From Mycolicibacterium porcinum (GTDB lineage: Bacteria > Actinomycetota > Actinomycetes > Mycobacteriales > Mycobacteriaceae): a DNA stretch of 64,000 nt. Below the pieces are notes generated by a model. It saw only the letters and a list, made by a program, of their open reading frames with translations, ran no database searches and was not told the origin of the DNA. Shown here piece by piece: positions 18,138 to 35,805 of this stretch (the first letter of the stretch is position 1; each line of letters begins with the position of its first letter). The DNA lies in contig MVIG01000001.1 in assembly GCA_002086835.1 (NCBI GenBank), positions 248,001-312,000 on the forward strand, written 5' to 3'. The translations under genes and the position numbers were made by a program.

Positions 18138-18434
18138 ATGGATCACGTTCTGTCCTACGACTTCGGTGAGATCGAGTACTCGGTCCGCCAGGAAATCCAT
18201 ACCACCTCGAGCCGGTTCAACGCCGCCCTCGACGAATTGCGTTCCCAGATCGCACCTCTGCAGCAGGTCTGGACCCGCGAGGCGGCGCAGGCCTATGCCG
18301 TCGAGCAGGCTCGGTGGAACCAGGCCGCGGCGGCCCTCAACGAAATCCTGTTCTCGCTCGGCAATGCGGTGCGCGAGGGTGCCGACGAGGTGGCCGCGAC
18401 CGATCGCAGTGCCGCCAACGCGTGGGGAGTCTGA
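18138..18434 (+). CDS. esxT: ESX-4 WXG100 secreted protein EsxT
   Basis: The 98-residue EsxT partner begins with SYDFGEIEYSVRQEIHTT and has the helix-turn-helix length of WXG100 proteins. The turn reads VWTREAAQAY, so the glycine of WXG is replaced by arginine, a feature I also recall for M. tuberculosis EsxT. The C-terminus (EGADEVAATDRSAANAW) fits the YxxxD/E-like export region only loosely. It is the last gene of the ESX-4 cluster and ends in a strong bidirectional terminator. Confidence 0.94.
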   Translation: MDHVLSYDFGEIEYSVRQEIHTTSSRFNAALDELRSQIAPLQQVWTREAAQAYAVEQARWNQAAAALNEILFSLGNAVREGADEVAATDRSAANAWGV

Positions 18435-18442
18435 CGCGGAAG

Positions 18443-18498
18443 AGACCGGTGCGGTCCCGCTCGGAGGAGAGCCGAGCGGGACCGCACACTTCCGGTCT
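18443..18498. terminator. Bidirectional hairpin terminator between esxT and the helicase gene
   Basis: The arms GTGCGGTCCCGCTCGG (18449-18464) and CCGAGCGGGACCGCAC (18472-18487) form a perfect 16-bp stem with a 7-base loop. Outer arms AGACCG and CGGTCT extend it past a short bulge to the helicase stop codon. It lacks a T-tract, as many mycobacterial terminators do, and its position between convergent genes suggests it serves both. Confidence 0.75.
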
Positions 18499-19930
18499 AG
18501 CGGCTGGAGTTGGAATCGCCTGCGCGCCGGGGGCGGCGGTGTCCACCGCCGCGCTGCTGTCCGCCTGCACCGGAACCGGACCGGGCCGACGGGGCGCCGC
18601 CGTTGCGCGATGAGCCGTTGGGGCGGCTGCGTCGCTGCTGCTGACCCGACTTGCCCGGCTGCCCGGACTTGTTGCCTTGGCGCCGCGGCGCCGGAGCGGG
18701 CTGGGCGGCCGGCTCGGGGCGAATGGGGTCACCGAAAACCCGGTCCCCGGGGGCGATCTCCCGCAGCACCGGATGGTCGGTGCCGTTCACCCGGGTGATC
18801 GTGGGCTTGACCCCGGCCTTCTTGGTCAGCATGCGAACATCGGAAACCTGCGCGTCGTGCATGAGCGTCACCACGGTGCCCTCGTTCCCGGCGCGGGCCG
18901 TGCGCCCGGACCGGTGCAGGTAGGCCTTGTGCTCGACCGGCGGGTCGGCGTGCACCACGAGGCTGACGTCGTCGACGTGGATACCGCGGGCGGCGATGTC
19001 GGTGGCCACCAGAACCGCCGCCGATCCGTCGGAGAACGCGGTCAGATTGCGGGTGCGGGCATTCTGGGACAGGTTGCCGTGCAGCTCGACTGCCGAAACA
19101 CCACGCGAATTGAGCTGGCGGGTCAGGTTTTTCGCACCGTGCTTGGTACGGGCGAACACGATGGTGCGGCCCGGGGCGGCAGCCAGATCGGCCACCACGT
19201 TGACCCGTGCGGAGTTGTCCACGTGCAACACGTGGTGCACCATCGCGGTCACCGGCGACTGTGCCGAATCCACGCTGTGCACCACGGGATCGTGCAGATA
19301 GCGCTTGACCAGCACGTCGACCCCGGCATCGAGGGTGGCCGAGAACAGCAGGCGCTGGGAGTCTTTCGGGGTGCGGTCCAGCAGCCGCTTCACGCCGGGC
19401 AGGAAGCCCAGGTCGGCCATGTGGTCGGCCTCGTCGAGCACGGTGATCTCGACTGCGGACAGGTCGGCGTGGCCGGATCGCATGTGGTCTTCGAGTCGGC
19501 CCGGGCAGGCGATCACGATGTCCACGCCTGCTCGGAGCGCGGAGATCTGCGGGTTGGGGCCCACGCCACCGAAGATGTTGACCGACCGCAGGCCGGTGGC
19601 CTTGGCCAGCGGGGCCAGCGAGGCTTCGATCTGGGTGACCAGTTCGCGGGTGGGCGCCAGGATCAGCGCGCGGGGACGGTTCGGCGCCCGGCGGGTGCCG
19701 CTGGTCGCCAACCGCGCCACCAGGGGCAACAGGAACGCATACGTCTTGCCGGATCCGGTCCGGCCGCGGCCGAGGACGTCACGGCCCTTCAGCGAGTCGG
19801 GCAGGGTCGCGGCCTGGATCGGGAACGGGGTGTCGATTCCGTTGCCGGCGAGGGTTGCGACGATCTCGGCGGGCAGGCCGAGGTCGGCGAATGTGGGCAC
19901 AGCGGTGCCAGGGGTCTCTTGGACAGACAA
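18497..19930 (-). CDS. DEAD-box RNA helicase
   Basis: The 477-residue ATP-dependent RNA helicase is of the RhlE/DeaD type, for RNA remodelling in the cytoplasm. All motifs are present: Q motif FPIQAATLP, motif I RTGSGKT (about 57), PTRELVTQ, DEAD (about 162), SAT, VATDIAARGIH and HRSGRTARAG. The last about 80 residues are a basic Arg/Gly/Ser-rich RNA-binding tail. The start is a TTG at 19930 with GGAG 8 bases upstream. The frame stays open far upstream, but that part overlaps the divergent regulator. A -10-like TATAGT at 20049-20054 would give a 5' leader of about 110 bases. Confidence 0.93.
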   Translation of the reverse strand: MSVQETPGTAVPTFADLGLPAEIVATLAGNGIDTPFPIQAATLPDSLKGRDVLGRGRTGSGKTYAFLLPLVARLATSGTRRAPNRPRALILAPTRELVTQIEASLAPLAKATGLRSVNIFGGVGPNPQISALRAGVDIVIACPGRLEDHMRSGHADLSAVEITVLDEADHMADLGFLPGVKRLLDRTPKDSQRLLFSATLDAGVDVLVKRYLHDPVVHSVDSAQSPVTAMVHHVLHVDNSARVNVVADLAAAPGRTIVFARTKHGAKNLTRQLNSRGVSAVELHGNLSQNARTRNLTAFSDGSAAVLVATDIAARGIHVDDVSLVVHADPPVEHKAYLHRSGRTARAGNEGTVVTLMHDAQVSDVRMLTKKAGVKPTITRVNGTDHPVLREIAPGDRVFGDPIRPEPAAQPAPAPRRQGNKSGQPGKSGQQQRRSRPNGSSRNGGAPSARSGSGAGGQQRGGGHRRPRRAGDSNSSR

Positions 19931-20048
19931 AATGAAAGCTCCGAAAATAGAGGGCGGTCGTCCTGCCCGGCGCGAGTGATATCTCGCGGCGCTCGGTGTG
20001 ACGATCGAGAAGGCGGCAAAGGCAGAACAGACAAGCCGCCGTGCCCCG

Positions 20049-20054
20049 ACTATA
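20049..20054 (-). promoter_or_regulatory. Candidate -10 element of the helicase gene
   Basis: On the minus strand this reads TATAGT, close to the SigA consensus. No convincing -35 was found. It would leave about 110 untranslated bases before the TTG start. The gap of 292 bases (19931-20222) also holds a plus-strand TATCCT near 20130, a possible -10 for the GAF regulator gene. Confidence 0.4.
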
Positions 20055-20222
20055 CGGGTAGCGGGCTGGTTTCCCCGAGTTCTGGCTGCTGACCAGCGGG
20101 TGGTATCCATCACAGCTCCAGGCGGGTCAACTATCCTGGCGGTTACGCGTGAATGCCATACCCATGGCCCGACGCCGGGAGAGATGATCGCCGTGGCCGC
20201 ATCGAGGAACACGGGAGGCCGG

Positions 20223-21488
20223 ATGTCCACCCGGGCCCTTCCGGCGAAGGTGCGCGCCATCCATGATCTGTTCATCGAGGGCCAGGTGGACGCCGCTTCG
20301 CTGGATTCCACCCCGGTGCGTCGCGTCATCGTGGAGAGCTGGCAGCGCAGCCTGGCCACCGGGGTGGATCCAGACCTGGGCACCCGGGCGGCTGCCGCGG
20401 CCGCCGCGCTGACCGAGTTGCGCAACGCGCATCCGCTCGCGCCCACCCTGCCGCTGATCCGTCGTCTGCTGGTCGAAGATGCCGTCGACGCCGGCGTCCT
20501 GGTGGCCATCACCGCCGCCGATGGCACCCTGCTGTGGGTCGAGGGCGACCCCGGAGTGCGCCGCAAGGCCGAGGCGATGAACTTCGTTCCCGGTTCGGAC
20601 TGGAGTGAACGGACGGCCGGGACGAATGCCCCCGGCACCGCCTTGGCCCTCGACCGCGAACTGCAGATCCTGGGGTCAGAACACTTCTCCCGGATCGTGC
20701 ATCCGTGGAGCTGTACCGCGGTTCCGGTGCACGACCCGGCCACCGGGGCGTTGCTCGGTGCCATCGACCTGACTGGCGGGTCCAAGGTGGCCTCGACCCA
20801 GACCTTGGCGCTGGTCAGGGCGACTGCGGTCGCGGTTGAGAATCAGCTGGCGCTGCTCCGGCTCACCGCGCCACCCGCACCCGCGACCGCGGAGGGGGCG
20901 CGGCTGACCGTGTTGGGCGCGGAACGTCCACGCTGGCACCTGGCCGACGCCGCAGGTCGACCGCAATCCAGCGTCCTGACCGGGCGGCACGCCGACATCC
21001 TGGTGCTGCTGATCCGGCATCCCGAGGGACTGAGCGCCGACCATCTGGCCATGCTCCTCGACGACAAAGACCTCGACGTGGTCACCGTGCGGGCCGAGGT
21101 GTCGCGGCTGCGCCGGGTCATCGGAAGTACCTACATCGAGTCCCGGCCGTACCGGTTGATGGCCCCGGTCGCCAGCGATATGGGCGACGTCTACGACGCG
21201 CTGCAGGCCAGGAACGTCTCGGCTGCCCTCGACGCATACTCGGGCGCGTTGCTGCCGCAGTCGGTGTCGCCGGCCATCGCACGGCTGCGCACCGAACTGA
21301 GCGCCAGCCTGCGCGAGGCGGTGCTGGCCGGGGGCAATCTGAGCCTGTTGCGGCGCTGGTTGGCGCTGCCCGACGGCCGCGACGACCGGGAGGGTTGGCG
21401 GGTGCTGCACGACCACGCCGACGCAGACCCGGTGGCCCGGGCTCAGGCGCGTGGACGCCTGGCCGGAATCGACTCCGAACTGGGCTGA
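20223..21488 (+). CDS. GAF domain transcriptional regulator
   Basis: The 421-residue protein has an N-terminal AcoR-like region and GAF sensory domain (about 75-215, with [18 protein letters not shown] and [16 protein letters not shown]). A C-terminal winged-helix-like segment follows (about 250-320, [10 protein letters not shown] to [18 protein letters not shown]). It has no sigma-54 interaction domain. Such regulators sense small organic inducers. The ATG at 20223 has a GGGAGG site 5 bases upstream; the ATG at 20184 is less well placed. It lies directly before the aldehyde dehydrogenase gene and is the only regulator in the diol/ethanolamine block, so it is the likely controller of it. Confidence 0.85.
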
Positions 21489-21505
21489 TCGTCCCGCTCG
21501 CGAGC

Positions 21506-21543
21506 TGCAACGTTGCTTTTGACGTGTGCAACTGTGCTGCAAC
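21506..21543 (+). promoter_or_regulatory. Three TGCAAC repeats upstream of the aldehyde dehydrogenase gene
   Basis: TGCAAC occurs at 21506-21511, 21527-21532 and 21538-21543, spaced 21 and 11 bases, that is about two and one helical turns. The first is part of the palindrome GCAACGTTGC. Helical phasing suggests a protein binding array. Similar boxes lie upstream of the diol dehydratase operon (25624-25640). Confidence 0.5.
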
Positions 21544-21604
21544 CTACTGCCGACTACCTTTAGTGATGACCGACACATCTGGGTGTCCGATGCAGGAGAT
21601 TGCC

Positions 21605-23128
<1,524 letters not shown>

Positions 23129-23175
23129 GCCGTCGAGGTCGACGAGTCCGGTCCGGAAAGGGTCGTCATGCTGCG

Positions 23176-23211
23176 CGCGGGCAGCACCGGTGCGTGCCGG
23201 TGCTGCCCGCG
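23176..23211 (+). terminator. Hairpin after the aldehyde dehydrogenase gene
   Basis: CGCGGGCAGCACCGG (23176-23190) pairs perfectly with CCGGTGCTGCCCGCG (23197-23211) around a 6-base loop. There is no T-tract. It lies 47 bases after the stop and 66 bases before the alcohol dehydrogenase gene, so it may attenuate rather than end transcription between the two. Confidence 0.6.
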
Positions 23212-23277
23212 GGATCGCACAACCGAATAACAACAAAATCGGCTGCCAGCAACACCCTTCAATGATGGGAGCGACTC

Positions 23278-24339
23278 ATGACCCAGACTCTCGACGACAG
23301 CGTCGGCGCCAATAGCGCTGGCCGGATGCGCGCAGCGGTGGTCACCGAATTCGGTGCGCCGCTGCAGGTTTCTGAACTCGACCTGCCGACGCCCGGACCG
23401 GGTGAGGCACTGGTCAAGCTCGAGACCTCAGGCGTGTGCCACACCGACCTCCATGCCGCACATGGCGATTGGCCAGTGAAGCCCAGGCCGCCGTTCGTCC
23501 CGGGCCATGAGGGGTACGGCACGGTGGTGGCGCTGGGGCCCGGCGTGGCGGACCTGAAGATCGGCGACAAGGTCGGCAACGCCTGGCTGTGGTCGGCCTG
23601 TGGCACGTGCGAGTACTGCCGCACCGGCTGGGAGACCCTGTGTGAGCAGCAGCGCAACGGTGGCTACAGCGTCAATGGCAGCTTCGGCTCCTACATGTTG
23701 GTCCACGCCGCCTATGCCGCTCGGATCCCCGAGGGCGCCGACCCGGTCGAGGTGGCGCCCGTCCTGTGTGCCGGGGTGACGGTCTACAAAGGCCTGAAGG
23801 TGACCGACACCCGGCCCGGTCAATGGGTGGCGATCTCAGGGGTCGGCGGACTGGGTCACGTCGCGGTGCAGTATGCCCGCGCGATGGGTCTGAGGGTGGT
23901 CGCCATCGACATCGACGACGCCAAGCTGGAACTGGCCGGACGACTCGGTGCCGAGGTGACGGTGAACGCCACGACGTCCGACGTCGTGGCCGAAGTGCAG
24001 AAGGCCACCGGCGGCGTGCACGGCGTGCTGGTGACAGCGGTGCATCCGCAGGCGTTCGGCCAGGCGATCGGGCTGGCCCGCCGCGGTGGCACCATTGTCT
24101 TCGTCGGTCTGCCGCCGGGAGACTTCCCGGCGCCGATCTTCGACATCGTGCTCAAGGGATTGACCATCCGCGGCTCGATCGTGGGTTCGCGCCAGGACAT
24201 GGTTGAGGCCCTCGATTTCTACCACCGTGGCCTGATCCACCCGATTGTCGAGACGACGTCCCTCGATCAGATCAACGACGTGTTCGAGCGGATGGAACGC
24301 GGGCAGATCGACGGCCGGATCGTCATCGATTACCGGTAG
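23278..24339 (+). CDS. Zinc-dependent alcohol dehydrogenase, AdhP-like
   Basis: The 353-residue NAD(H)-linked alcohol dehydrogenase interconverts short primary alcohols and aldehydes. Catalytic zinc ligands are in SGVCHTD and PGHEGYG. Structural zinc cysteines are in SACGTCEYC and ETLCEQ, and the Rossmann motif is GVGGLGH followed by an acidic AIDIDD, favouring NAD over NADP. The ATG has a weak GGGAGC site. It lies in line with the aldehyde dehydrogenase, so the pair could dispose of aldehydes in both redox directions. Confidence 0.92.
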   Translation: MTQTLDDSVGANSAGRMRAAVVTEFGAPLQVSELDLPTPGPGEALVKLETSGVCHTDLHAAHGDWPVKPRPPFVPGHEGYGTVVALGPGVADLKIGDKVGNAWLWSACGTCEYCRTGWETLCEQQRNGGYSVNGSFGSYMLVHAAYAARIPEGADPVEVAPVLCAGVTVYKGLKVTDTRPGQWVAISGVGGLGHVAVQYARAMGLRVVAIDIDDAKLELAGRLGAEVTVNATTSDVVAEVQKATGGVHGVLVTAVHPQAFGQAIGLARRGGTIVFVGLPPGDFPAPIFDIVLKGLTIRGSIVGSRQDMVEALDFYHRGLIHPIVETTSLDQINDVFERMERGQIDGRIVIDYR

Positions 24340-24365
24340 TAGAGGTCCCCTGAACTGCCGTCGAG

Positions 24366-24414
24366 TGTGAAGCTGTTGCGACATCTGACCCGCACGCTCG
24401 TTAACAGCTTCACA
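24366..24414. repeat. Intergenic 12-bp inverted repeat after the alcohol dehydrogenase gene
   Basis: TGTGAAGCTGTT (24366-24377) and AACAGCTTCACA (24403-24414) are perfect inverted arms around 25 bases. It starts 26 bases after the gene and has no T-tract. Its left flank (GCCGTCGAGTGTGAA) resembles that of the larger palindrome at 35816 (GCCGTCGAAAGTGAA), so both may belong to one repeat family. Confidence 0.5.
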
Positions 24415-24468
24415 TTCGCGGTACTGCTTGACAACCACTGTCCATCAAAATGATTCACGAGGAGACTT

Positions 24469-24867
24469 ATGGGTTCCCTGCCGCTGCCGACCGCGCAGAA
24501 GGTGATCGATGCCGCAGTAGTCAAGGCCGAGGAGATCGGCCAGCCGATGAACATCGCCGTGGTCGACGACGGAGGTCACCTGGTCGCCTTCGTACGCATG
24601 GACGGTGCGATCAAGGCCAGCATCGACATCTCGATCCGCAAGGCGCGTACCGCGGTCATGATGAACCTGCCCACCAGCGCGCTGATGGCGGCCTGCCAGC
24701 CGGGTGGCGAACTCTACGGCCTGGAGCAGACCTCGGGCGGGTTGGTTGTTTTCGGCGGCGGGATACCGCTGGAGGCCGACGGTGTCGTGATCGGTGCGGT
24801 CGGGGTCAGTGCCGGCAGCGTCGAGCAGGACGTCGCGGTGGCTTCCGCCGCGGTAGCGGCAATCTGA
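24469..24867 (+). CDS. HbpS/GlcG-like (DUF336) protein
   Basis: The 132-residue protein covers the whole GlcG/HbpS fold, also found as the C-terminal domain of PduO in diol-utilisation clusters. Core motifs are AVVDDGGHLVAFVRMDGA, SIRKARTAV and GGIPL, with GAVGVSAGSVEQD near the end. Known members bind haem or act near cobalamin; no enzyme activity can be read from sequence. The ATG has a GAGGAG site. It lies between the dehydrogenases and the diol dehydratase, which supports a link with the B12 pathway. Its last six codons are duplicated downstream. Confidence 0.85.
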   Translation: MGSLPLPTAQKVIDAAVVKAEEIGQPMNIAVVDDGGHLVAFVRMDGAIKASIDISIRKARTAVMMNLPTSALMAACQPGGELYGLEQTSGGLVVFGGGIPLEADGVVIGAVGVSAGSVEQDVAVASAAVAAI

Positions 24868-24891
24868 CCGAGGCCGCGGTAGCGGCAATCT
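24847..24891 (+). repeat. 19-bp tandem-type direct repeat at the end of the HbpS-like gene
   Basis: GCCGCGGTAGCGGCAATCT occurs at 24847-24865 and again at 24873-24891, a 26-base period. The first copy encodes the C-terminal AVAAI and stop. The second lies after the stop and abuts the convergent FhuF-like gene. It is a clear local duplication, probably by replication slippage. Confidence 0.8.
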
Positions 24892-25591
24892 AGTCGACGA
24901 GAACGCAGTCACCGCAATACCCGCCGCCGGGGACCTGGTAGAACAGGCAGCAATTGCGGCGCCGGAATCGTTGTCCCACAAGGTCTGCGGCGCCGCGCAA
25001 TGGATCGGTGGATATCAGCGCGTGGATGAGTTCACGGCCGCGTGCCTCCGCATCGGGGCGGGACTGGGCCAGCACGGTGACCGCACCGTTGGCCGCCGAG
25101 GCGATGTTGCCCCACATCACCTGGGGTGAAAGGGATTCCGCCAACCGCATGGTGTTGTTCAGCAGGCTGAACACAGTTTCGATCAGCGATTCGGTGATGA
25201 CGGTGGCGGCCCGGCGCGGATCGGCTTCGGTCACGGATTCGGCGCCGAGGGTTCCCAGCGCCGGACGGTGGGACGAATTGTGTTGCCAAAAAAGCGAATC
25301 GAGGGTCAGAACCGGAACGGTGCCCAGGCATACCGCGGCACCGACGACGGGGGACAGCAGACGCGCAGTGATCGACAGGTGCAGCGACGATGCCGCCGCT
25401 TTGACGGGAACATCGGTTTCGTCGATCCCGAAGCCGGTGGCGGTCGCGGCTCGGGTACGCATCGTGTATTCGTGCACGGCCGCTTGATCGCCGCACAGCG
25501 ACCTGATCGGTCGCCAGGTGGCGGGGTCGGCCGCCGGGAGGGCGAAGAACTCACCCAGCGCGGCGATCGGATCGGATTTTCCAGCGTCCAT
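24890..25591 (-). CDS. FhuF-like [2Fe-2S] protein
   Basis: The 233-residue protein ends with the FhuF-type cluster motif CC-x10-C-x2-C (RNCCLFYQVPGGGYCGDCVLVD), which in FhuF binds a [2Fe-2S] cluster that reduces ferric siderophores. The upstream domain includes the conserved LLSPVVGAAVCLGTVP and NNTMRLAESL. It is divergent from the diol dehydratase operon (126-base gap) and convergent with the HbpS-like gene. Its function here is unclear: ferric-siderophore reduction is the family role, but an electron-transfer job linked to cobalamin reduction is conceivable. Confidence 0.82.
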   Translation of the reverse strand: MDAGKSDPIAALGEFFALPAADPATWRPIRSLCGDQAAVHEYTMRTRAATATGFGIDETDVPVKAAASSLHLSITARLLSPVVGAAVCLGTVPVLTLDSLFWQHNSSHRPALGTLGAESVTEADPRRAATVITESLIETVFSLLNNTMRLAESLSPQVMWGNIASAANGAVTVLAQSRPDAEARGRELIHALISTDPLRGAADLVGQRFRRRNCCLFYQVPGGGYCGDCVLVD

Positions 25592-25623
25592 CGTCGGGCC
25601 AGGTTAGCCGCACTGACCTGCGG

Positions 25624-25640
25624 CGCAACCTTCATGCAAC
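25624..25640 (+). promoter_or_regulatory. Paired YGCAAC boxes upstream of the diol dehydratase operon
   Basis: CGCAAC (25624-25629) and TGCAAC (25635-25640) are 11 bases apart, the same phase as the repeats before the aldehyde dehydrogenase gene. A further partial inverted match (GCGTTGTG) lies at about 25664-25671. These are candidate sites for the GAF regulator encoded at 20223. Confidence 0.45.
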
Positions 25641-25716
25641 GTGATGCAGCGCACAATTGGGTCGCGTTGTGTCGCATATCGGTGGGAGAACCGCCCCGAG
25701 CCAGTTGGAGTCGTGA

Positions 25717-26145
25717 ATGACGGAACCGATCCTTGATCCTTCGGTCGATTACCCGCTGAGCATCCATCGCGAAGACCTGCTGTTCACCCCCAACGGCAAG
25801 CCGATCGGCGATATCACCATGGATGCGGTGACCTCGGGTGAGGTCTCCGCGTCGGACCTCCGGATCACCCCGCAGACCTTGCGGCTGCAGGCTCAGATCG
25901 CCGAGAAGGTGGGACGCCGGCAGCTCGGCTCGAACCTGCGGCGGGCAGCGGAGATGACCGCGATCAGCGACGAGCGGGTACTGCAGATCTACAACGCGCT
26001 GCGGCCCAACGCCTCCACCAAAGCCGAACTCGACGCGATCGCCGAGGAGTTGGACACGAAATACGGGGCGGCATTGCTGGCTGGTCTCGTCCGCGAGGCT
26101 GCCGACGTCTACGAGCGCCGCGACATTCTGGCCACCAGCGAATAG
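25717..26145 (+). CDS. pduE: Propanediol/glycerol dehydratase small (gamma) subunit
   Basis: The 142-residue gamma subunit belongs to the adenosylcobalamin-dependent diol dehydratase. The conserved region runs DYPLSIHREDLLFTPNGKP then ITPQTLRLQAQIAE, RRAAEMTAISDERVLQIYNALRP and the tail RRDILA. It comes first in the operon; in the well-known pdu operons the small subunit comes last. The ATG has a TTGGAG site. The large-subunit gene follows after 10 bases. The gene symbol is used by analogy. Confidence 0.9.
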   Translation: MTEPILDPSVDYPLSIHREDLLFTPNGKPIGDITMDAVTSGEVSASDLRITPQTLRLQAQIAEKVGRRQLGSNLRRAAEMTAISDERVLQIYNALRPNASTKAELDAIAEELDTKYGAALLAGLVREAADVYERRDILATSE

Positions 26146-26155
26146 GAGAACACCG

Positions 26156-27874: not shown

Positions 27875-27875
27875 T

Positions 27876-28472
27876 ATGTCGGCAGTGACCGGGCAGCGCA
27901 CCCTGACGTTCACCGGCGAGCGGCCGGCCGAACCGGGAAAGCGCTCCGATGAAGTGGTGCTGGCGATTTCGCCGGCGTTCGCCGACTTCTTCAGTCAGAC
28001 CATCATCGGCCTATCCCATGCCGACGTGATCCGCCAGATCCTGGCCGGCATCGAGGAGCAGGAGGTGGCCGCGCGATGCATCCGGGTGCGGCACAGCAGC
28101 GACCTCGCGGTGGTCGCGCATGCGGCGGCCAGACTGAGCGGATCGGGGATCGGTATCGGCATCCTGTCTCGCGGCACGTCGATGATCCATCAGCGTGACC
28201 TCCCGCGGTTGTCCAGCCTCGAGCTGTTCCCGCAGAGCCCGCTGATGACGTTGGAGACCTATCGCCGCATCGGCTCGAACGCCGCCCAGTACGCCAAAGG
28301 CGAGTCACCAGAACCGGTTCCGACGCTCAACGACCAGATGGCCCGTCCCCGCTGGCAGGCCAAGGCGGCGCTGCTGCATCTGAAGGAGACCGAGCAGATC
28401 CGTAAGCAGACCCGCCCGGTAGAGGTGACACCGGAGTTCGCCGAGCTGACCCCTGAGGCACTGGGTACCTGA
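27876..28472 (+). CDS. pduD: Propanediol/glycerol dehydratase medium (beta) subunit
   Basis: The 198-residue beta subunit binds the cobalamin lower face together with the alpha subunit. The family core is EVVLAISPAFADFF, GLSHADVIRQILAGIEEQEV, ARCIRVRHSSDLAVVAHAAARLSGSGIGIGI and FPQSPLMTLETYR. It lacks the long N-terminal extension that targets PduD to microcompartments in enteric bacteria, in line with the absence of shell genes. It overlaps the reactivase gene by one base (TGATG). Confidence 0.93.
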   Translation: MSAVTGQRTLTFTGERPAEPGKRSDEVVLAISPAFADFFSQTIIGLSHADVIRQILAGIEEQEVAARCIRVRHSSDLAVVAHAAARLSGSGIGIGILSRGTSMIHQRDLPRLSSLELFPQSPLMTLETYRRIGSNAAQYAKGESPEPVPTLNDQMARPRWQAKAALLHLKETEQIRKQTRPVEVTPEFAELTPEALGT

Positions 28473-30328
28473 TGGCACTGAATGTTGTCGGTGTCGACAT
28501 CGGCAACTCGACGACCGAGGCCAGCGCCGCGGTCGTCGCGACTGACGGCTCGATCCGGTTCCGCGGCGCCGCGCTGACTCCGACGACGGGCATCAAGGGC
28601 ACCCCACGGAATGTCGACGGGGTGGCCCAGGCGGTGGTTCGTGCGCTGGAAACGAGCGCGATGGGTCTGGCCGAGCTCGACATCGTCTTGCTGAACGAGG
28701 CGACCCCGGTCATCAGCGGCATGGCGATGGAAACCATCACCGAAACCATCATCACCGAGTCGACGATGATCGGCCATGACCCTCGCACCCCGGGTGGTCG
28801 TGGTCTCGGGGTGGGCGTCACTGTCGCGTTCGACGCCCTCACCGAATCTCCTTCCGGCACCGAAGTGATCGTGGTGGTCCCCCGGGAGGTGGACTTCGAG
28901 GACGCGGCCCGCACGATCAATGCTGCGGCCGCACAGGGACTTGTGGTGCGCGGGGCCATCCTGGGCAACGACGACGCCGTGCTGGTGGCCAACCGGCTCG
29001 ACACCGTGATTCCGGTGATCGACGAGGTATCGCGCATCGATGCGGTGCCGCTGGGCATGCTGGCCGCGGTCGAGGTGGCCGCGCCCGGCAACTCGATCCG
29101 GACCTTGTCCAATGCCTATGGGCTGGCGACGATCTTCGACCTGGACGCGGCGGCCACGAAGGTGATCTCACCCGTGGCCCGGGCACTGACCGGCAACCGC
29201 TCGGCGGTGGTCGTGCGCACCCCCGCAGGCGATGTCGCGGATCGCAGTATCCCGGCCGGATCACTTGAGTTGTCCGGCGCGCACAGACGCGCGACGGTCG
29301 ACGTATCCCGCGGCGCGCCGGAGATCATGAGCGCGGTCGAGCGGGTCGCTCCACTGGCGGATGTGGCGGGGGAGTCAGGCACCAACACCGGAGGCATGAT
29401 CGCCAACGTCCGGCACAGTATGGTCGAACTCTCCGGTCACGCACCGGAAGACGTGCGGATACAAGATCTACTGGCCGTGGATACCTTTGTGCCGCAAGAG
29501 GTTCGTGGCGGGGTGGCCGGTGAGGTGGCACTGGAGAATGCGGTCGCGCTGGCTGCCATGGTCCGGACTCGGGAAAGTGGTATGCGTGCGGTGGCCGATG
29601 AGGTGCGCGCGCGATTGCAGGCTGCCGGCGCCCGGTCTGTCGAGGTGATGGTCGGCGGTGTCGAGGCCGAGATGGCGGCGCAGGGCGCGTTGACCACGCC
29701 GGGAACCGACAAGCCGCTCGTCGTGCTCGATCTCGGCGGCGGGTCGACGGATGCCGCACTGATCGAGGACGCCGACATCGAGGCCGTACACCTGGCCGGC
29801 GCGGGGGATCTGGTCACCAAGCTGATCGACGCCGAGCTCGGCCTGGACAACCTGGAGCTGGCCGAGGACATCAAACGATCACCATTGGGCAAGGCGGAGA
29901 GCTTCTTTCACGTCCGGTTGGAGAACGGCAACGTGATGTTCTTCGAAAAGCCATTGCCCGCGGCGTCGTTCGCGCGGGTGGTCACACTGGCCGAGTACGG
30001 CATGAATGCGATCCCCACCAGGCATTCCATGGAGCGGATCAGGTTGGTGCGCCGCGGGGCGAAGGAGCGGGTGTTCGTCGTCAATGCGCTGCGCGCGTTG
30101 CGCGCTGTCGCACCCGGCGGCGATCTGCGCCGGGTCGGGTTCGTGGTGCTGCTCGGCGGGTGCGCGCTGGACTTCGAGATCCCCGAGCTCATCGCCGATG
30201 CCCTTGCTCCATTCGGAATTGTCTGCGGCACAGGCAATGTGCGTGGTTCAGAAGGCCCGCGGAATGCGGTGGCCACAGGTCTGGTGGCGTCTCATGCGCG
30301 GCTGGTCGGAGCGGGTATCAGTGCATAG
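28472..30328 (+). CDS. pduG: Diol dehydratase reactivase large subunit (DdrA/PduG-like)
   Basis: The 618-residue actin-fold, Hsp70-like ATPase exchanges damaged cobalamin from the inactivated dehydratase. The N-terminal phosphate loop is VVGVDIGNSTTEAS, and the second phosphate/adenosine region is VVLDLGGGSTDAALI (about 410-425), with LGGCALDFEIPELI near the C-terminus. It is translationally coupled to pduD at the 5' end and overlaps pduH at the 3' end by 8 bases. It could in principle also service the ethanolamine ammonia-lyase, for which no EutA-type reactivase is present nearby. Confidence 0.94.
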   Translation: MALNVVGVDIGNSTTEASAAVVATDGSIRFRGAALTPTTGIKGTPRNVDGVAQAVVRALETSAMGLAELDIVLLNEATPVISGMAMETITETIITESTMIGHDPRTPGGRGLGVGVTVAFDALTESPSGTEVIVVVPREVDFEDAARTINAAAAQGLVVRGAILGNDDAVLVANRLDTVIPVIDEVSRIDAVPLGMLAAVEVAAPGNSIRTLSNAYGLATIFDLDAAATKVISPVARALTGNRSAVVVRTPAGDVADRSIPAGSLELSGAHRRATVDVSRGAPEIMSAVERVAPLADVAGESGTNTGGMIANVRHSMVELSGHAPEDVRIQDLLAVDTFVPQEVRGGVAGEVALENAVALAAMVRTRESGMRAVADEVRARLQAAGARSVEVMVGGVEAEMAAQGALTTPGTDKPLVVLDLGGGSTDAALIEDADIEAVHLAGAGDLVTKLIDAELGLDNLELAEDIKRSPLGKAESFFHVRLENGNVMFFEKPLPAASFARVVTLAEYGMNAIPTRHSMERIRLVRRGAKERVFVVNALRALRAVAPGGDLRRVGFVVLLGGCALDFEIPELIADALAPFGIVCGTGNVRGSEGPRNAVATGLVASHARLVGAGISA

Positions 30329-30701
30329 CGTTGGTCAGCCCGATCGTCCCGCGATCGTGGTGTTGAGTGCGGGCGGCCGTGAGGTCGAACGGAACGTGCT
30401 GGCGGGCATCGAGGAAGAAGGTGTCCCGTATCTGCTGGTTCCGGGTGACGCTCAGGTGCCGGCCGCGGAACTGGCGCGCCGCGCGGCGCTCAGGTCGGCG
30501 CTGCATGTCGGGGTGGGTGTGGGCGCGCGGGGCGAGGTGTGCGTGCAGCACGCCAAACTGTCAGATCCGTTGCCCGAGTTGTCATCTGGTGGCGGCGCCG
30601 GTCGGGCCGCTGGCCGTAGGCTGGGCCACAACGCGGCCCGCATCGTGGCCGGTGTGCCGCTCAAACCCGACGATTGGCAACCAAATTGGCCGTTGGGGTA
30701 G
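30321..30701 (+). CDS. pduH: Diol dehydratase reactivase small subunit (DdrB/PduH-like)
   Basis: The 126-residue partner of the reactivase has a beta-subunit-like fold (PAIVVLSAGGREVERNVLAGIEEEGVPYLLV, then LRSALHVGVGVGARGEVCVQHAKL and NAARIVAGVPLK). The GTG start at 30321 overlaps the end of the large reactivase gene by 8 bases; the longer open frame from 30006 is an out-of-frame shadow. It is the last gene of the dehydratase operon, and a 197-base structured gap follows. Confidence 0.88.
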   Translation: MHSVGQPDRPAIVVLSAGGREVERNVLAGIEEEGVPYLLVPGDAQVPAAELARRAALRSALHVGVGVGARGEVCVQHAKLSDPLPELSSGGGAGRAAGRRLGHNAARIVAGVPLKPDDWQPNWPLG

Positions 30702-30735
30702 ACACCGCCGCGTAGTCGGGCAATAATCTTCGATT

Positions 30736-30851
30736 AAAGGTTGAGTTTCATACCTTTGGAAGATCACCTCGTCGGAGATCGAGCGCCGACCCGGCGGTGT
30801 TGCCGGGTTAATGGTTGGGCCACCGCCCGCAAGACCGTCATCAGCTGACGG
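30736..30851 (+). promoter_or_regulatory. Structured leader upstream of the ethanolamine permease
   Basis: The 197-base gap (30702-30898) holds four hairpins: AAAGGT/ACCTTT (30736-30757), ACCCGGC/GCCGGGT with a 6-base loop GGTGTT (30789-30808), GGGC/GCCC (30817-30828) and CCGTCA/TGACGG with a 5-base loop (30835-30851). None has a T-tract. No cobalamin riboswitch B12 box is recognisable. The tandem small hairpins recall ANTAR-type leader RNAs of eut genes, but the loops do not fit that consensus. Confidence 0.4.
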
Positions 30852-30898
30852 CATCACATACGAGACAGACGAAACCGTTGTAACTGAAGGAGTTTGAC

Positions 30899-32314
30899 AT
30901 GGCGGGTGTGGAAGAACACCTGGAGAGCGCTGACTATCTGAACAAACGTCAGCTCAAATCCGGAAGCGCTGGGTGGCTGCTACTGGCCGGCCTCGGCGTC
31001 AGCTATGTGGTCTCGGGCGATTTCTCGGGCTGGAACTTCGGCCTCGAGCAGGGCGGCTTCGGCGGCCTGCTGATCGCTGTGGTGGTCATCGCCGCCATGT
31101 ACTTCTGCATGGTCCTGGGCCTGGCCGAGCTGTCCTCGGCGCTGCCCGCGGCCGGCGGCGGCTACACCTTCGCCCGTCGCGCGCTCGGCCCGTGGGGCGG
31201 CTTCGCCACCGGCACCGCGATCCTGATCGAGTACTCGATCGCACCGGCGGCGATCGCCACATTCATCGGCGGCTACGTCGAATCCCTCGGCCTGTTCGGC
31301 ATTCACAAGGGCTGGTGGGTCTACCTGGCGGCTTTCGTCATCTTCATCGGAATTCACCTCGCCGGCGTCGGTGAAGCGCTGCGGCTGATGTTCGTCATCA
31401 CCGCGATCGCGCTGCTGGGCCTGGTCATCTTCGCCGTGAGCGCCATCGGTCACTTCGACGTCGCCAACCTGACCGACATCACTCCCGACGCCGCCGCGGT
31501 CGGCGCGTCGAGCTTCCTGCCGCACGGTTACCTGGGTATCTGGGCGGCGATCCCGTTCGCCATCTGGTTCTTCCTGGCGGTCGAGGGCGTCCCCCTGGCC
31601 GCCGAGGAGACGGCCAACCCGGAGCGCAACGTGCCGCGCGGCATCATCGCCGCGATGACGGTGCTGATCATCACCTGCGTGACAGTGCTGTTCCTGACGG
31701 CCGGCGCAGGCGGCGCCGACGCGATGTCGACCGTGGACGATCCACTGGTGCAGGCTCTCGGCGGCACCGGGTTCGCCGCCAAGGCGGTCAACTACATCGG
31801 TCTGTTCGGGCTGATCGCGAGCTTCTTCTCGATCATCTACGCCTACTCGCGGCAGACCTTCGCGCTGTCGCGGGCCGGTTACCTGCCCACCTCTCTGTCG
31901 GTGACCAACAAGCGCAAGGCGCCCACGCTCGCGTTGATCGTCCCGGGCATCATCGGCTTCCTGTTGTCGCTGACCGGCCACGGTGATCTGATCCTGAACA
32001 TGGCGGTTTTCGGTGCGGCGCTGAGCTACGTCCTGATGATGATCAGCCACATCGTGCTGCGGGTCCGCGAGCCGGAGATGAACCGGCCGTACCGCACGCC
32101 GGGCGGGATCGTCACCACCGGCTTCGCCCTGGTCATCGCGGTCGTGGCGCTCATCGCGACCTTCGTGGTCAGCCCGGTGGCCGCCGGCCTGTGCCTGGCT
32201 GTGTTCTGCGCGTTCATGCTCTACTTCGCGCTCTACAGCCGCCACCGCCTGGTGGCCAACTCGCCCGACGAAGAGTTCGCCATGCTCGCGGAAGCGGAGA
32301 GTGCCCTGAAATGA
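30899..32314 (+). CDS. Ethanolamine permease (APC family)
   Basis: The 471-residue APC transporter has about twelve hydrophobic helices; the first has the family motif region LLAGLGVSYVVSGDFSGWNFG. The stretch ADLSSALPAAGGGYTFARRALGPWGGF-like (about 85-105) and the sequence FLAVEGVPLAAEETANPERNVPRG are strongly typical of ethanolamine permeases. A GAAGGAG site precedes the ATG. It overlaps eutB by 4 bases (ATGA), so permease and lyase are co-translated, which supports ethanolamine as substrate. Confidence 0.92.
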   Translation: MAGVEEHLESADYLNKRQLKSGSAGWLLLAGLGVSYVVSGDFSGWNFGLEQGGFGGLLIAVVVIAAMYFCMVLGLAELSSALPAAGGGYTFARRALGPWGGFATGTAILIEYSIAPAAIATFIGGYVESLGLFGIHKGWWVYLAAFVIFIGIHLAGVGEALRLMFVITAIALLGLVIFAVSAIGHFDVANLTDITPDAAAVGASSFLPHGYLGIWAAIPFAIWFFLAVEGVPLAAEETANPERNVPRGIIAAMTVLIITCVTVLFLTAGAGGADAMSTVDDPLVQALGGTGFAAKAVNYIGLFGLIASFFSIIYAYSRQTFALSRAGYLPTSLSVTNKRKAPTLALIVPGIIGFLLSLTGHGDLILNMAVFGAALSYVLMMISHIVLRVREPEMNRPYRTPGGIVTTGFALVIAVVALIATFVVSPVAAGLCLAVFCAFMLYFALYSRHRLVANSPDEEFAMLAEAESALK

Positions 32315-33726
32315 AATACCACCAGCAGGTTTCGGGGGTGACCTACAGCTTCGACGGTCTGGTCGAGGTGATGGCCAAGGCCACCCCGCTGCGCTCCGGC
32401 GATCAGCTCGCCGGCTGCGCGGCCGAGCACGACGGGGAACGCGCCGCGGCCGCCTGGGTGCTCGCGGACCTGCCGCTGGACACCTTCCTCAACGAGGAAC
32501 TGGTGCCCTACGACACCGATGAGGTAACCCGGCTGATCATGGACAGCCATGACCGCCAAGCCTTTTCGGAGATCTCGCACCTGACCGTCGGCGGGCTGCG
32601 GGACTGGCTGATGGACACCGCGGCGCATGACCACAGCGCCGAGCGGCTGGCTGCCGTCGCACCGGGACTGACCCCGGAGATGGTCGCGGCGGTCAGCAAG
32701 ATCATGCGCAACCAGGATCTGATCGCGGTGTCGGCCGCGGCAGAGGTGACCGCCGCGTTCCGCACCACCGTCGGCGCGCGCGGCACCCTCGCGACCCGGT
32801 TGCAGCCGAACCATCCGACCGACGATCCGCGCGGAATCGCCGCGGCGGTGCTCGACGGGCTGCTGCTGGGGTGCGGTGACGCGGTGATCGGCATCAACCC
32901 GGCCACCGACTCGCCGCAGGCCACCGCGGATCTGCTGTACCTGCTCGACTCGATCCGGACTCGCTACGACATTCCGGCCCAGTCCTGTGTGCTGTCGCAT
33001 GTCACCACCACGATCGGCTTGGTCGAGGCCGGGGCGCCGGTGGACCTGATGTTCCAGTCGGTGGCGGGCACCGAGGGCGCCAACTCCGCATTCGGGGTGA
33101 ACCTGCAGCTGCTGCGGGAAGGCAATGAGGCGGCGCGCAGCCTGCGTCGCGGAACCGTCGGCGACAACGTCATGTACCTGGAGACCGGTCAGGGCTCGGT
33201 GCTCAGTTCCGGCGCACACCTGGGTGTCGGCGGCAAACCGGTGGACCAGCAGACGCTGGAGGCCCGTGCCTACGCGGTGGCCCGCGACCTGGAGCCGCTG
33301 CTGGTCAACACCGTCGTCGGGTTCATCGGACCGGAGTATCTGTACGACGGCAAGCAGATCATCCGGGCCGGCTTGGAAGACCACTTCTGCGGCAAGCTGC
33401 TGGGCCTGCCGATGGGGGTGGACGTCTGCTACACCAATCATGCCGAGGCCGACCAGAACGACATGGACAACCTGCTGACGTTGCTGGCCGCGGCCGGGGT
33501 GGCGTTCGTCATCACCGTGCCCGGCGCCGACGACGTGATGCTCGGCTACCAGAGCCTGTCGTTCCACGACGTGCTGACCACCCGGCGGACTCTGGGTCTG
33601 CGTCCGGCCGCCGAGTTCGAGGCGTGGCTGCGCAGCGTCGGCATGGTCGACGACTCCGGCAAGCTGACCCCGTTCGACCTGGAGCGCTCGGTGCTGCGGT
33701 CCCTCACTTCCGCGGAGACGTCATGA
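32311..33726 (+). CDS. eutB: Ethanolamine ammonia-lyase large subunit
   Basis: The 471-residue alpha subunit of the adenosylcobalamin enzyme converts ethanolamine to acetaldehyde and ammonia. Family signatures visible are MRNQDLIAVSAAAEV, TRLQPNHPTDDP, GDAVIGINPATDS, LMFQSVAGTEGANSAFGV (active-site glutamate) and LPMGVDVCYTNHAEADQNDMD. The ATG at 32311 overlaps the permease stop; the longer frame from 32191 lies within the permease gene. It overlaps eutC by 4 bases. Confidence 0.96.
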   Translation: MKYHQQVSGVTYSFDGLVEVMAKATPLRSGDQLAGCAAEHDGERAAAAWVLADLPLDTFLNEELVPYDTDEVTRLIMDSHDRQAFSEISHLTVGGLRDWLMDTAAHDHSAERLAAVAPGLTPEMVAAVSKIMRNQDLIAVSAAAEVTAAFRTTVGARGTLATRLQPNHPTDDPRGIAAAVLDGLLLGCGDAVIGINPATDSPQATADLLYLLDSIRTRYDIPAQSCVLSHVTTTIGLVEAGAPVDLMFQSVAGTEGANSAFGVNLQLLREGNEAARSLRRGTVGDNVMYLETGQGSVLSSGAHLGVGGKPVDQQTLEARAYAVARDLEPLLVNTVVGFIGPEYLYDGKQIIRAGLEDHFCGKLLGLPMGVDVCYTNHAEADQNDMDNLLTLLAAAGVAFVITVPGADDVMLGYQSLSFHDVLTTRRTLGLRPAAEFEAWLRSVGMVDDSGKLTPFDLERSVLRSLTSAETS

Positions 33727-34496
33727 GTCCCAATGAGGTTGCAGTTCAAGAGTTCTGGGATGAGCTGCGCAAGACCACCCAAGCCAGGATCGGGTTGGGG
33801 CGGGCCGGTAACGCGCTGCCCACCCGCCGGGTGCTCGAGCTGTCCGCGGCACACGCCGCGGCGCGTGACGCCGTGCACGTCCCGCTGGACGTCGACAAGC
33901 TCTCCGACGAGGTTCGCGCGGTCGGCATCGGTGAGCCGACACTGGTGACGAGCAAGGCCACCTCCCGGGACGAGTATCTGCGCAGGCCCGATCTCGGCCG
34001 CGAACCCGCCGAGGGCATGCAGGTGCCCGACACCCCCGCCGACATCGGCTTCGTGCTGGCCGACGGATTGTCGCCGACGGCGCTGGACCGCCATGGTGCG
34101 ACGCTGCTGGCGGCGCTGGTGGCCGAGCTGCAGGGCCGCTACACCCTGGCCCCGCCGGTGATCGCGACCCAGGCGCGCGTCGCCCTGGGCGATCACGTCG
34201 CTGCCCAGGCCCACATGCGGACGGTGCTCGTCATCATCGGGGAGCGGCCCGGTTTGAGCGTCGCCGACAGTCTCGGCATCTACCTCACGCATCTGCCGAT
34301 GCCCGGTCGCACCGATGCCGATCGCAACTGCATCTCCAACATTCACCCGCCCGACGGCCTGGGATATGCCGAAGCCGCGCGGGTGGCAGCCGGATTGGTC
34401 GACGGTGCGCTGGCGCTGGGTCGCTCCGGCGTCGACCTGAAGGACACCTCACGGACTTCGGCGCTCGGCACCCCGGGCGTCGTCGAACTCACCTGA
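33723..34496 (+). CDS. eutC: Ethanolamine ammonia-lyase small subunit
   Basis: The 257-residue beta subunit forms the cobalamin-binding part of the lyase. Family motifs are TQARIGLGRAGNALPTRRVLEL, HAAARDAVHVPLD, VTSKATSRDEYLRRPDLGR, LVIIGERPGLSVADSLGIYLTH and TDADRNCISNIHPPDGLGY. Its start codon overlaps the eutB stop (ATGA). It is followed after 22 bases by a lipoprotein phosphatase gene that is probably in the same operon. Confidence 0.96.
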   Translation: MSPNEVAVQEFWDELRKTTQARIGLGRAGNALPTRRVLELSAAHAAARDAVHVPLDVDKLSDEVRAVGIGEPTLVTSKATSRDEYLRRPDLGREPAEGMQVPDTPADIGFVLADGLSPTALDRHGATLLAALVAELQGRYTLAPPVIATQARVALGDHVAAQAHMRTVLVIIGERPGLSVADSLGIYLTHLPMPGRTDADRNCISNIHPPDGLGYAEAARVAAGLVDGALALGRSGVDLKDTSRTSALGTPGVVELT

Positions 34497-34518
34497 ATCC
34501 ACCAGACGGGAACCCTTG

Positions 34519-35805
34519 ATGACCTCACGCGCACCGTTGTCCCTTCTCGTCGCCGCGGTGACCGCGGTGCTGACCGTCGCCGGGTGTGGTTCCGGCGCCG
34601 AGCCGGCGCAGTCGTCGAGCACCTCCGAGAAGGACGCGGCGGCCGACTGTCGCACGCTGGCCGAGAACCCCGGCTGGTACGGCGACAACCGCGACCGGAT
34701 CGACACGATGCTCGCGGAGTTGGGAAATTGCGGGGCCAACGGTTCGGTGGCCGACGGCGCACCGGTGGCGTTGTTCGACTGGGACAACACCCTGGTCAAG
34801 AACGACATCGGCGACGCGACGTTCTTCTGGATGGTGCGCAACGGCAAGTTGCGCGCTCCGGCAGGTGGGGACTGGTCGACCACCAGCCCGTACCTCACCC
34901 CGCAGGCCACCGCGGCGCTGGCCAAGGCGTGCGCCGCGGCCAAACCGGGCCAGCCGATGCCGACCGACACCGATCTCGGGTGCGCCGACGAACTGCTGTC
35001 GGTCTACACCGATGCGAAGACGCGTGCCGACGAGCCGGCATTCGCCGGGTTCAACGCCCGCCGGGTCGAGCCGGCCTATGCCTGGAACGCACAGATGCTC
35101 GCCGGCTGGACAGAACCCGAGCTGACCGGTTTTGCCGAGGCCGCCCGCAAGGAGAATCTGGACGCTCCCGAAGGCACCGAGCAGAAGGTGGGCAGCGGCG
35201 AGGAAACCGGCTGGGTGCGTTACTACCCGCAGATGCGAGACCTGGTGGAAACGTTGCGCGCCAACGGTTTCGACGTGCGGGTGATCTCCGCGTCGCCAGA
35301 ACCGGTGGTACGGGTGTGGGGCGCCGAACTCGGATTCACCCCGGACAAGGTGATGGGTGTGCGAACCGAACTCGACGGTGGCGTGCTCACCTCGAAGCTG
35401 GCGCCCTGTGGCGGTGAGACCGCCATTCCGTACATCGAGGGCAAGCGGTGCCGGGTCAACGAGGACGTCTTCGGTGTCAAGGGTCCTGCCGCATTCGAGC
35501 AGCAGGCCGAGCCGAAGCGTGCGGCCTTCGGCGCCGGGGACTCCGACACCGACGTCACGTTCCTCACCGACGCCACCGCCCTTCGCCTGGTGCTCAACCG
35601 CAACAAGACCGAGCTGATGTGCTCGGCCTACGACAACGCCGACGGTCGCTGGCTGGTCAATCCGATGTTCATCGACCCGAAGAAGAAGCAGGCCGATCCG
35701 TACGAGTGCGCGACGGAGGGCTACATCGAACCCAGCGGCAAGGAGGCCCCGCTGCACCGCGCTGACGGAAGTGTGGTCCCTGACCAGCAGGATTCGGTGT
35801 CCTAG
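34519..35805 (+). CDS. Lipoprotein HAD phosphatase (phosphocholine phosphatase-like)
   Basis: The 428-residue protein has a lipoprotein signal peptide (lipobox TVAGC, Cys about residue 22) and a HAD hydrolase domain. Motif I is LFDWDNTLVKNDIG (nucleophile aspartate), motif II is VISASPEPV and motif III is GAGDSDTD. The DxDNT, SAS and GDSDTD combination is like bacterial phosphorylcholine phosphatase. Its position straight after eutBC suggests it releases ethanolamine from phosphoethanolamine outside the membrane for the permease; this is inference. An ATG at 34519 is preferred over the TTG one codon earlier. A strong palindrome follows. Confidence 0.85.
   Translation: MTSRAPLSLLVAAVTAVLTVAGCGSGAEPAQSSSTSEKDAAADCRTLAENPGWYGDNRDRIDTMLAELGNCGANGSVADGAPVALFDWDNTLVKNDIGDATFFWMVRNGKLRAPAGGDWSTTSPYLTPQATAALAKACAAAKPGQPMPTDTDLGCADELLSVYTDAKTRADEPAFAGFNARRVEPAYAWNAQMLAGWTEPELTGFAEAARKENLDAPEGTEQKVGSGEETGWVRYYPQMRDLVETLRANGFDVRVISASPEPVVRVWGAELGFTPDKVMGVRTELDGGVLTSKLAPCGGETAIPYIEGKRCRVNEDVFGVKGPAAFEQQAEPKRAAFGAGDSDTDVTFLTDATALRLVLNRNKTELMCSAYDNADGRWLVNPMFIDPKKKQADPYECATEGYIEPSGKEAPLHRADGSVVPDQQDSVS

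Follow-up and report, generated by a model that had tools for sequence, protein, structure and literature searches.

The degradation of ethanolamine and of diols by B12-dependent enzymes that release toxic aldehydes has been described in loci of several layouts. The short eut operon of Pseudomonas aeruginosa PAO1 encodes an ExaC homologue, Eat, EutB, EutC and EatR, with bacterial microcompartment (BMC) genes absent (PMC5821096), and in the PDU/EUT fusion loci of Listeria and other organisms both pathways adjoin and are apparently regulated independently (PMC4207490). In Mycobacterium smegmatis, EutBC and three glycerol dehydratase large subunits have been reported (PMC8088520), and proteins of the corresponding module have been detected (PMC5430705; PMC9604228). 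The subject of this report is a comparable locus in a 64,000-nucleotide stretch of Mycolicibacterium porcinum DNA (contig MVIG01000001.1, positions 248,001 to 312,000; the window), where a glycerol/diol dehydratase with its reactivase and an ethanolamine ammonia-lyase operon lie side by side ahead of rplM.

The locus resembles the P. aeruginosa operon in its ExaC-type dehydrogenase, its permease, EutBC and the lack of shell genes, but differs from it in that the neighbouring regulator is a predicted DhaR-SARP fusion, where P. aeruginosa has EatR and a sigma-54 promoter, and in the presence of a dehydratase block. Side-by-side pathways are common to this locus and the PDU/EUT fusion loci; the latter, however, have shells, whereas no shell gene is found here. 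The M. smegmatis region from MSMEG_1543 to MSMEG_1554 was compared at the enzyme level and is alike there, that species having three dehydratase large subunits, as does M. porcinum. The likeness to the Klebsiella dha regulon lies in the closest solved dehydratase, in short beta and gamma subunits, and in OrfY (2a2l), a DUF336 relative that we take to belong to the dha operon context; ExaC presumably stands here in the place of the Klebsiella 1,3-propanediol branch, and the regulator, unlike that of Klebsiella, lacks the rest of DhaR. Finally, SARP activators such as AfsR have in common with this system the winged helix and BTAD fold, as judged from a model, and 11-bp direct repeats over the -35 region, but AfsR differs from the regulator described here, which has an N-terminal DhaR-type GAF sensor.

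The enzymes and the shell-less state are thus of known kinds, and the finding first stated in the initial annotation, a shell-less module joining both pathways, is mostly known biology. What appears to be new, in that it was not met in a limited literature search, is the predicted coupling, in which a DhaR-SARP regulator and a rigidly spaced promoter box would link ExaC to the dehydratase. We propose a cytosolic, modular, aldehyde-producing locus in which this regulator would couple ExaC and the dehydratase through a shared repeat, with the eut genes controlled separately, and we assign to this joint claim a probability of roughly 65%. One cassette, the glycerol/diol dehydratase and its reactivase, would convert a glycerol-like diol to an aldehyde, and a second, the short eut operon (permease, EutBC), would convert ethanolamine to acetaldehyde and ammonia; the non-acylating ExaC would oxidize the aldehyde from both cassettes to the acid. 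In place of a shell, ExaC and the dehydratase would be tied by transcription, the regulator binding YGCAAC-N5-TGCAAC over the -35 of both promoters and activating both together, and the eut operon would be under its own operator, AAAGGT-N10-ACCTTT. The gene content, the shell-less locus, the missing N-terminal extensions, the repeat with its fixed -10 spacing and the two-domain regulator model are computed results; regulator-repeat binding, activation, the sensed signal, the diol substrate and the service of ExaC to both cassettes are inferences.

The proposed promoter box and its candidate regulator

The regulator, the two repeats and the genes that follow them are located in the window as follows.

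20145..21488, plus strand: GAF regulator, predicted fusion of a DhaR-type sensor with a SARP-type winged helix/BTAD; position of the start uncertain
21527..21543, plus strand: direct repeat TGCAAC-N5-TGCAAC, proposed exaC regulator box; -10-like TACCTT at 21555-21560
21605..23128, plus strand: exaC, NAD-linked non-acylating acetaldehyde dehydrogenase (NF050026, 963 bits, cut-off 900)
25624..25640, plus strand: direct repeat CGCAAC-N5-TGCAAC, proposed dehydratase-operon box, between fhuF and ddS; -10-like CACAAT at 25652-25657
25717..26145, plus strand: dehydratase small subunit, ddS (PF02287; 142 aa, lacking an N-terminal extension; among solved structures closest to glycerol dehydratase gamma, 1iwp_G)
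26156..27874, plus strand: dehydratase large subunit (PF02286, 981 bits; scores 809 bits with glycerol dehydratase 1iwp and 774 with diol dehydratase 1dio)
27876..28472, plus strand: dehydratase medium subunit (PF02288; 198 aa, of which residue 6 corresponds to residue 44 in the 1dio beta chain)
28472..30328, plus strand: reactivase large subunit, DdrA (TIGR04491, 866 bits, above cut-off)
30321..30701, plus strand: reactivase small subunit, DdrB (PF02288 at residues 115-220 of the 30006 frame; GTG start proposed from sequence)

When the spacers were aligned between the window and eight relatives, two conserved stretches emerged, and YGCAAC-N5-TGCAAC, a direct repeat with an 11-bp period, stands 5' of exaC and of the dehydratase operon. 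Exactly two copies are present in the window, against a mean of 0.0 in 100 resampled windows; no third exact copy occurs in the 2,025,156 of 6,960,672 own-genome bases (29%) that were scanned, and none is found at the genome's two other dehydratase loci or at its RMM locus.

Wider counts were made in a set of dehydratase loci (80 kept of 477, M. smegmatis not among them), in which gene tallies take the single best match per gene per locus and exclude matches covering 40% or less of the query. Upstream tallies skip genes with less than 150 bp of upstream DNA, and exaC was tallied for the repeat at 70% identity or more, that is in 30 of the 33 loci with a match (L084, L058 and L062 excluded). 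The 80 loci hold 104 copies with a 5-base spacer, compared with 0 to 3 for every other spacer from 0 to 20. The repeat lies within 250 bp 5' of all 30 exaC genes and of 45 of the 78 ddS genes; its occurrence 5' of 25 of 29 fhuF genes involves the same sites as the ddS copies, fhuF being divergent, and it precedes none of the medium-subunit (0/80), reactivase (0/79), rplM (0/20) or eut permease (0/13) genes. An A at +29 and a T at +33 past the repeat, corresponding to the A and T of a TAnnnT-like -10, are found in 99 of 104 sites, with 5 or fewer at other offsets, and this spacing is retained in 22 of 25 sites of 13 loci from further genomes. A later set of 20 dehydratase genomes overlaps the 80 loci in 13 cases; in the later set of loci the repeat precedes 14 of 15 exaC and 20 of 20 ddS genes, and the sole exaC miss is L205, which also has no regulator match.

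SARP activators bind 11-bp direct repeats over the -35 region (PMC10936776), and by this yardstick the arrangement is of SARP type, with direct repeats one 11-bp turn apart near a -10. The GAF regulator named in the initial annotation is borne out by a profile match, and its model consists of a DhaR-type N-terminal sensor and a SARP-type winged helix plus BTAD fold; the VIA list for this model mainly tests model residues 87-242. Its full-length DhaR equivalog score, at 60.9 bits, is under the cut-off of 551. By analogy with the SARP activators, this protein would bind YGCAAC-N5-TGCAAC and activate. A narrow literature search found no mention of the box in print, which is weak evidence of absence.

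Several observations weigh against this proposal. The Trans_reg_C match of the regulator is weak (E 0.015) and the predicted template modelling score (pTM) of its model is 0.54. A looser form of the pattern matches five further own-genome sites in the scanned bases, and 33 of the 78 ddS genes have no exact repeat upstream, although ten of these keep it in place with 1-2 mismatches and the others are mostly from Actinomycetospora and Pseudonocardia. Of the 34 loci in which no regulator was detected (it may lie off-locus), 13 carry the repeat all the same, as does L216, which has no regulator match. The loci share descent, so that the tallies are of non-independent events. Lastly, MSMEG_1547 gave about equal RNA-seq values on glycerol, cholesterol and androstenedione in M. 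smegmatis (PMC4881515); glycerol as the inducer is unsupported by these data, in which no glycerol induction is seen, and was set aside.

Two published M. smegmatis mutants bear on the same genes. In an mnoSR mutant MSMEG_1543 and MSMEG_1546 fell (PMC11303327), and in a bkaR mutant MSMEG_1543 and MSMEG_1548 were up, with table values of 3.2 and 3.0 (PMC3920632); neither study found a site for the deleted regulator. A shared regulator would explain both co-changes, provided that the M. smegmatis genes carry the repeat.

All three dehydratase subunits and both reactivase subunits that had been annotated at the outset are confirmed by the family matches listed above. The medium and small subunits are shorter by about 38 and 31 N-terminal residues than the 1dio beta and gamma chains, which is the build of a glycerol dehydratase, and Q142, H144, E171, Q297, D336 and S363 (1iwp numbering), which we take to be the catalytic residues, are retained in an alignment with 1iwp read by eye. 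The enzyme is classed as of glycerol-dehydratase (dha) build, with a predicted glycerol-like diol as substrate. In L018 and L023, mycobacterial loci with the dehydratase alone, the repeat also precedes an FGGY kinase gene, a glycerol kinase (NCBIfam) in L018; a kinase gene behind the repeat hints at glycerol as the substrate, against which stands the lack of glycerol induction in the M. smegmatis RNA-seq data. In L011, L018 and L023 the repeat coincides with the beginning of a LuxR-family gene, after which comes a gene for a tetrapyrrole methylase (uroporphyrinogen-III methyltransferase in L011, NCBIfam). Near the dehydratase locus of L018 (1739-6168), besides the glycerol kinase 3' of the repeat, genes for a PduO-type adenosyltransferase and a 5'-methylthioadenosine/S-adenosylhomocysteine nucleosidase-like protein were noted; at a guess, the latter could clear 5'-deoxyadenosine from spent cofactor.

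The genome has three dehydratase large subunits. The two further paralogues, at C1:361421-363073 (L086) and C9:34367-36004 (L085), are about 50% identical to that of the window.

The ethanolamine operon

The eut half of the module begins after a gap of 197 bp that separates ddrB from the permease gene.

30736..30757, plus strand: inverted repeat AAAGGT-N10-ACCTTT, proposed separate eut operator, conserved 5' of the permease gene
30899..32314, plus strand: ethanolamine permease (TIGR00908, 530 bits, cut-off 382)
32311..33726, plus strand: eutB, ethanolamine ammonia-lyase large subunit (PF06751; ATGA overlap with the permease gene)
33723..34496, plus strand: eutC, light subunit (PF05985; begins with the ATG at 33723, in an ATGA overlap with eutB; a long N-terminal extension is absent)

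These matches uphold the permease and the ammonia-lyase that had been annotated. Since ATGA overlaps join them, the permease gene, eutB and eutC probably form a single transcript. AAAGGT-N10-ACCTTT stands 5' of the permease gene in all 13 of the 80 loci in which eut and the dehydratase are linked; it recurs in G034, G121, G177 and G077, and lies 5' of eut genes in 3 of 20 further regions (L213, L217, L218).

Linkage was surveyed in 198 genomes of the genus, 60 of which encode a dehydratase large subunit; the window-type dehydratase was defined by a score above 960 bits and is present in 24 genomes, and G123, whose EutB match is under the cut-off, was excluded from the linkage survey of dehydratase, eutB and BMC genes. 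In 19 of the 24 genomes rplM is no more than 15 kb away from the window-type dehydratase, and eutB is linked to this dehydratase in 13 of the 24; four genomes (G034, G096, G186, G197) have the dehydratase and a linked eutB with no BMC match. Beside rplM in G174, G156 and G124 (L206, L212 and L221), the regulator, the repeat, exaC, the permease gene, eutB and eutC are found, with adhP in addition in G124; a genome-wide dehydratase match is absent from these three genomes, as is AAAGGT-N10-ACCTTT from their rplM-side loci. On the far side esxT is visible in L206 and L212 only, and shorter forms lie between esxT and rplM in L216 and L205. Because L206, L212 and L221 have exaC and eut without the dehydratase beside rplM, exaC and the eut genes seem to form a basic unit; the dehydratase block (hbpS, fhuF, ddSLM, ddrAB) has the look of a cassette whose gain or loss took place between exaC and the permease gene.

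The shell, joint control and reactivation

The absence of a shell gene from the locus, as initially annotated, is upheld: the PF00936 matches of the genome all fall on contig C92, the window belonging to contig C1. The same annotation had held that shell genes elsewhere in the genome would refute a shell-less pathway, which on its face is the case: such genes exist, at C92:70149-71741, comprising a BMC-H match and a 206-aa frame with two BMC matches (BMC-T). Their neighbours encode a GntR/UTRA regulator, a short-chain dehydrogenase, an APH-type phosphotransferase, an aldehyde dehydrogenase and a class III aminotransferase, and with the gene content of RMM1 loci as a yardstick (PMC4207490) the C92 locus comes close to RMM1 and appears to be of the amino-alcohol type. 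Short peptides at either protein end direct enzymes into shells, and a fusion proved that of EutC to be one (PMC5821096); the EutC of the window has about 11 residues ahead of the aligned domain, compared with 66 in the 295-residue E. coli chain. The module is thus unlike PDU/EUT microcompartment loci, its locus having no shell genes and its dehydratase and EutC no N-terminal extension, and possesses what characterizes a short, shell-less eut operon, namely eutB and eutC, an Eat-type permease, an ExaC-type non-acylating dehydrogenase and no BMC genes at the locus.

A highly improbable alternative is that the enzymes are packed into an RMM shell encoded elsewhere, so that the locus merely looks shell-less. 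Apart from the BMC-H and BMC-T genes on C92, such a reading could draw on the fact that BMC genes are commoner in genomes with the window-type dehydratase (11/24) than in the rest (26/174; Fisher p 0.001, uncorrected for kinship), on the C9-type paralogue, which has BMC genes no more than 15 kb away in 13 of the 48 genomes that carry it and there resembles the RMM2 layout (PMC4207490), and on the report that some fast-growing mycobacteria probably house their ethanolamine enzymes in microcompartments (PMC4428469). It is opposed by the distances, since in none of the 24 genomes do BMC genes lie within 50 kb of the window-type dehydratase on the same contig, by the 13 of 24 that have no BMC match, by the missing N-terminal extensions, and by the C92 locus bringing its own aldehyde dehydrogenase, aminotransferase, short-chain dehydrogenase and phosphotransferase. 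A check of the genomes of dehydratase loci, covering 28 of the 80, found BMC genes in 10 and none in 18. The C92 shell does not seem to serve this module, and the module enzymes are likely cytosolic, because the locus is without a shell gene, N-terminal extensions are lacking, and 13 of 24 and 18 of 28 genomes are devoid of BMC genes. Of the distinct, cytosolic solution that had been suggested, the cytosolic part accordingly stands as likely and the distinctness does not, the shell-less state being already known.

That diol and ethanolamine degradation are co-regulated as one integrated system in this genome is, in our view, unlikely. The two halves are physically linked in 13 of 24 genomes and 13 of 80 loci, and in L206, L212 and L221, where the inverted repeat is absent, the eut genes follow exaC (in L221 via adhP) and may share its promoter; with the dehydratase block present, on the other hand, eut has the different repeat in 13 of 13 cases and the direct repeat in 0 of 13. 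Since the ethanolamine genes have a different proposed operator, the diol and ethanolamine pathways seem here to be neighbours under separate control; the joining of both pathways claimed in the initial annotation is real as adjacency, but modular. The least probable of the alternatives is that the DdrAB reactivase serves both enzymes. EutA was not found in 20 of 21 EutB genomes examined (of 73), that of M. porcinum included, which would leave DdrAB as a candidate, but EutBC persists in all 41 EutB-positive genomes without a dehydratase match, where no match to the diol dehydratase reactivase (DDR) is found, and a shared reactivase as a need of EutBC was rejected. Both counts (20 of 21 genomes lacking EutA, 41 of 41 lacking DDR) suggest that EutBC in mycobacteria functions with no reactivase of a known kind.

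Accessory genes and extent of the module

The module proper extends from about 20145 to 35805, ahead of rplM (frame 35937-36503), in the order GAF regulator, exaC, adhP, hbpS-like, fhuF-like (minus strand), dehydratase small, large and medium subunits, reactivase large and small subunits, permease, eutB, eutC and HAD lipoprotein phosphatase. A start at 18497 had been proposed earlier, but a minus-strand DEAD-box helicase gene occupies the stretch from 18497 to about 19950. A 210-aa open frame at 18166-18798, 3' of esxT and partly antisense to the helicase end, has no Pfam match and is probably no gene. The remaining members are the following.

23278..24339, plus strand: adhP, zinc alcohol dehydrogenase, optional member (NF006940, above cut-off)
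24369..24432, minus strand: Rfam Ms_IGR-8 (RF02470) palindromic hairpin between adhP and hbpS (49 bits, gathering 44; 12-bp inverted repeat)
24469..24867, plus strand: HbpS/DUF336-like protein of the EfgA / OrfY / PduO-C family (PF03928, E 3.6e-40)
24890..25591, minus strand: FhuF-like [2Fe-2S] protein, divergent from the dehydratase operon (PF11575)
34519..35805, plus strand: HAD-family lipoprotein phosphatase, predicted exported from a lipobox-like N-terminus (PF12710)

The aldehyde and alcohol dehydrogenases, the HbpS-like protein, the FhuF-like protein (TIGR03951 staying under its cut-off) and the lipoprotein phosphatase (lipobox-like N-terminus read by eye) all retain their initial assignments. 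None of the 8 close relatives that span the region has adhP between exaC and hbpS; that this gene is unique to the genome was dropped as an idea, G124 having adhP between exaC and the permease gene. Of 1144 own-genome candidates for Ms_IGR-8, 150 were scored, and this hairpin alone among them exceeded the gathering score. Control of the module by a cobalamin riboswitch was rejected, the only Rfam matches to E 1 in 14000-40000 being two of Ms_IGR-8; riboswitch matches elsewhere in the genome are on C32, C37 (under cut-off) and C47 (150 of 505 candidates scored).

The HbpS-like protein is present in 76 of the 80 dehydratase loci; the four others (L005, L032, L049, L050) are truncated, the contig ending close to the dehydratase. 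Among solved proteins, the formaldehyde sensor EfgA is the nearest to the HbpS-like protein (6bws, 117 bits), above K. pneumoniae OrfY and PduO-C, and the residues equivalent to EfgA K57/S114/D121 are retained in 76 of 76. These equivalents occur in OrfY and PduO-C as well (S14 Fig legend, PMC8153426), and in the same source EfgA did not bind acetaldehyde; on both counts, EfgA-type aldehyde sensing by the HbpS-like protein stays a guess. Its single histidine, H37 (window 24577-24579), makes haem binding of the PduO-C type through a His18 mode (PMC4923194) unlikely. H37 is found in 75 of 76 dehydratase-linked proteins, the position being Asn in EfgA and OrfY and Thr in PduO-C.

The FhuF-like protein, present in 29 of 31 mycobacterial loci, could at a guess be a corrinoid reductase. 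The HAD lipoprotein has a weak match (E 1.5e-4) to P. aeruginosa phosphorylcholine phosphatase 4as2, and may free ethanolamine from phosphoethanolamine outside the cell.

Conclusions

A broader generalization, tentative and on balance doubtful, is that Actinobacteria have exchanged the microcompartment for regulation: an aldehyde-responsive DhaR-SARP activator would couple ExaC to any adjoining adenosylcobalamin cassette (ethanolamine ammonia-lyase, glycerol/diol dehydratase, or both), with an EfgA-like HbpS as a second sensor guarding the aldehyde level. The coupling proposed for this locus supplies a possible cause, with a candidate site and regulator, for the two published co-changes of MSMEG_1543 and the dehydratase in M. 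smegmatis. It also represents a candidate answer to the question of how B12 enzymes that generate toxic aldehydes may be handled free of a shell, the producer and the disposal enzyme being placed under one switch.

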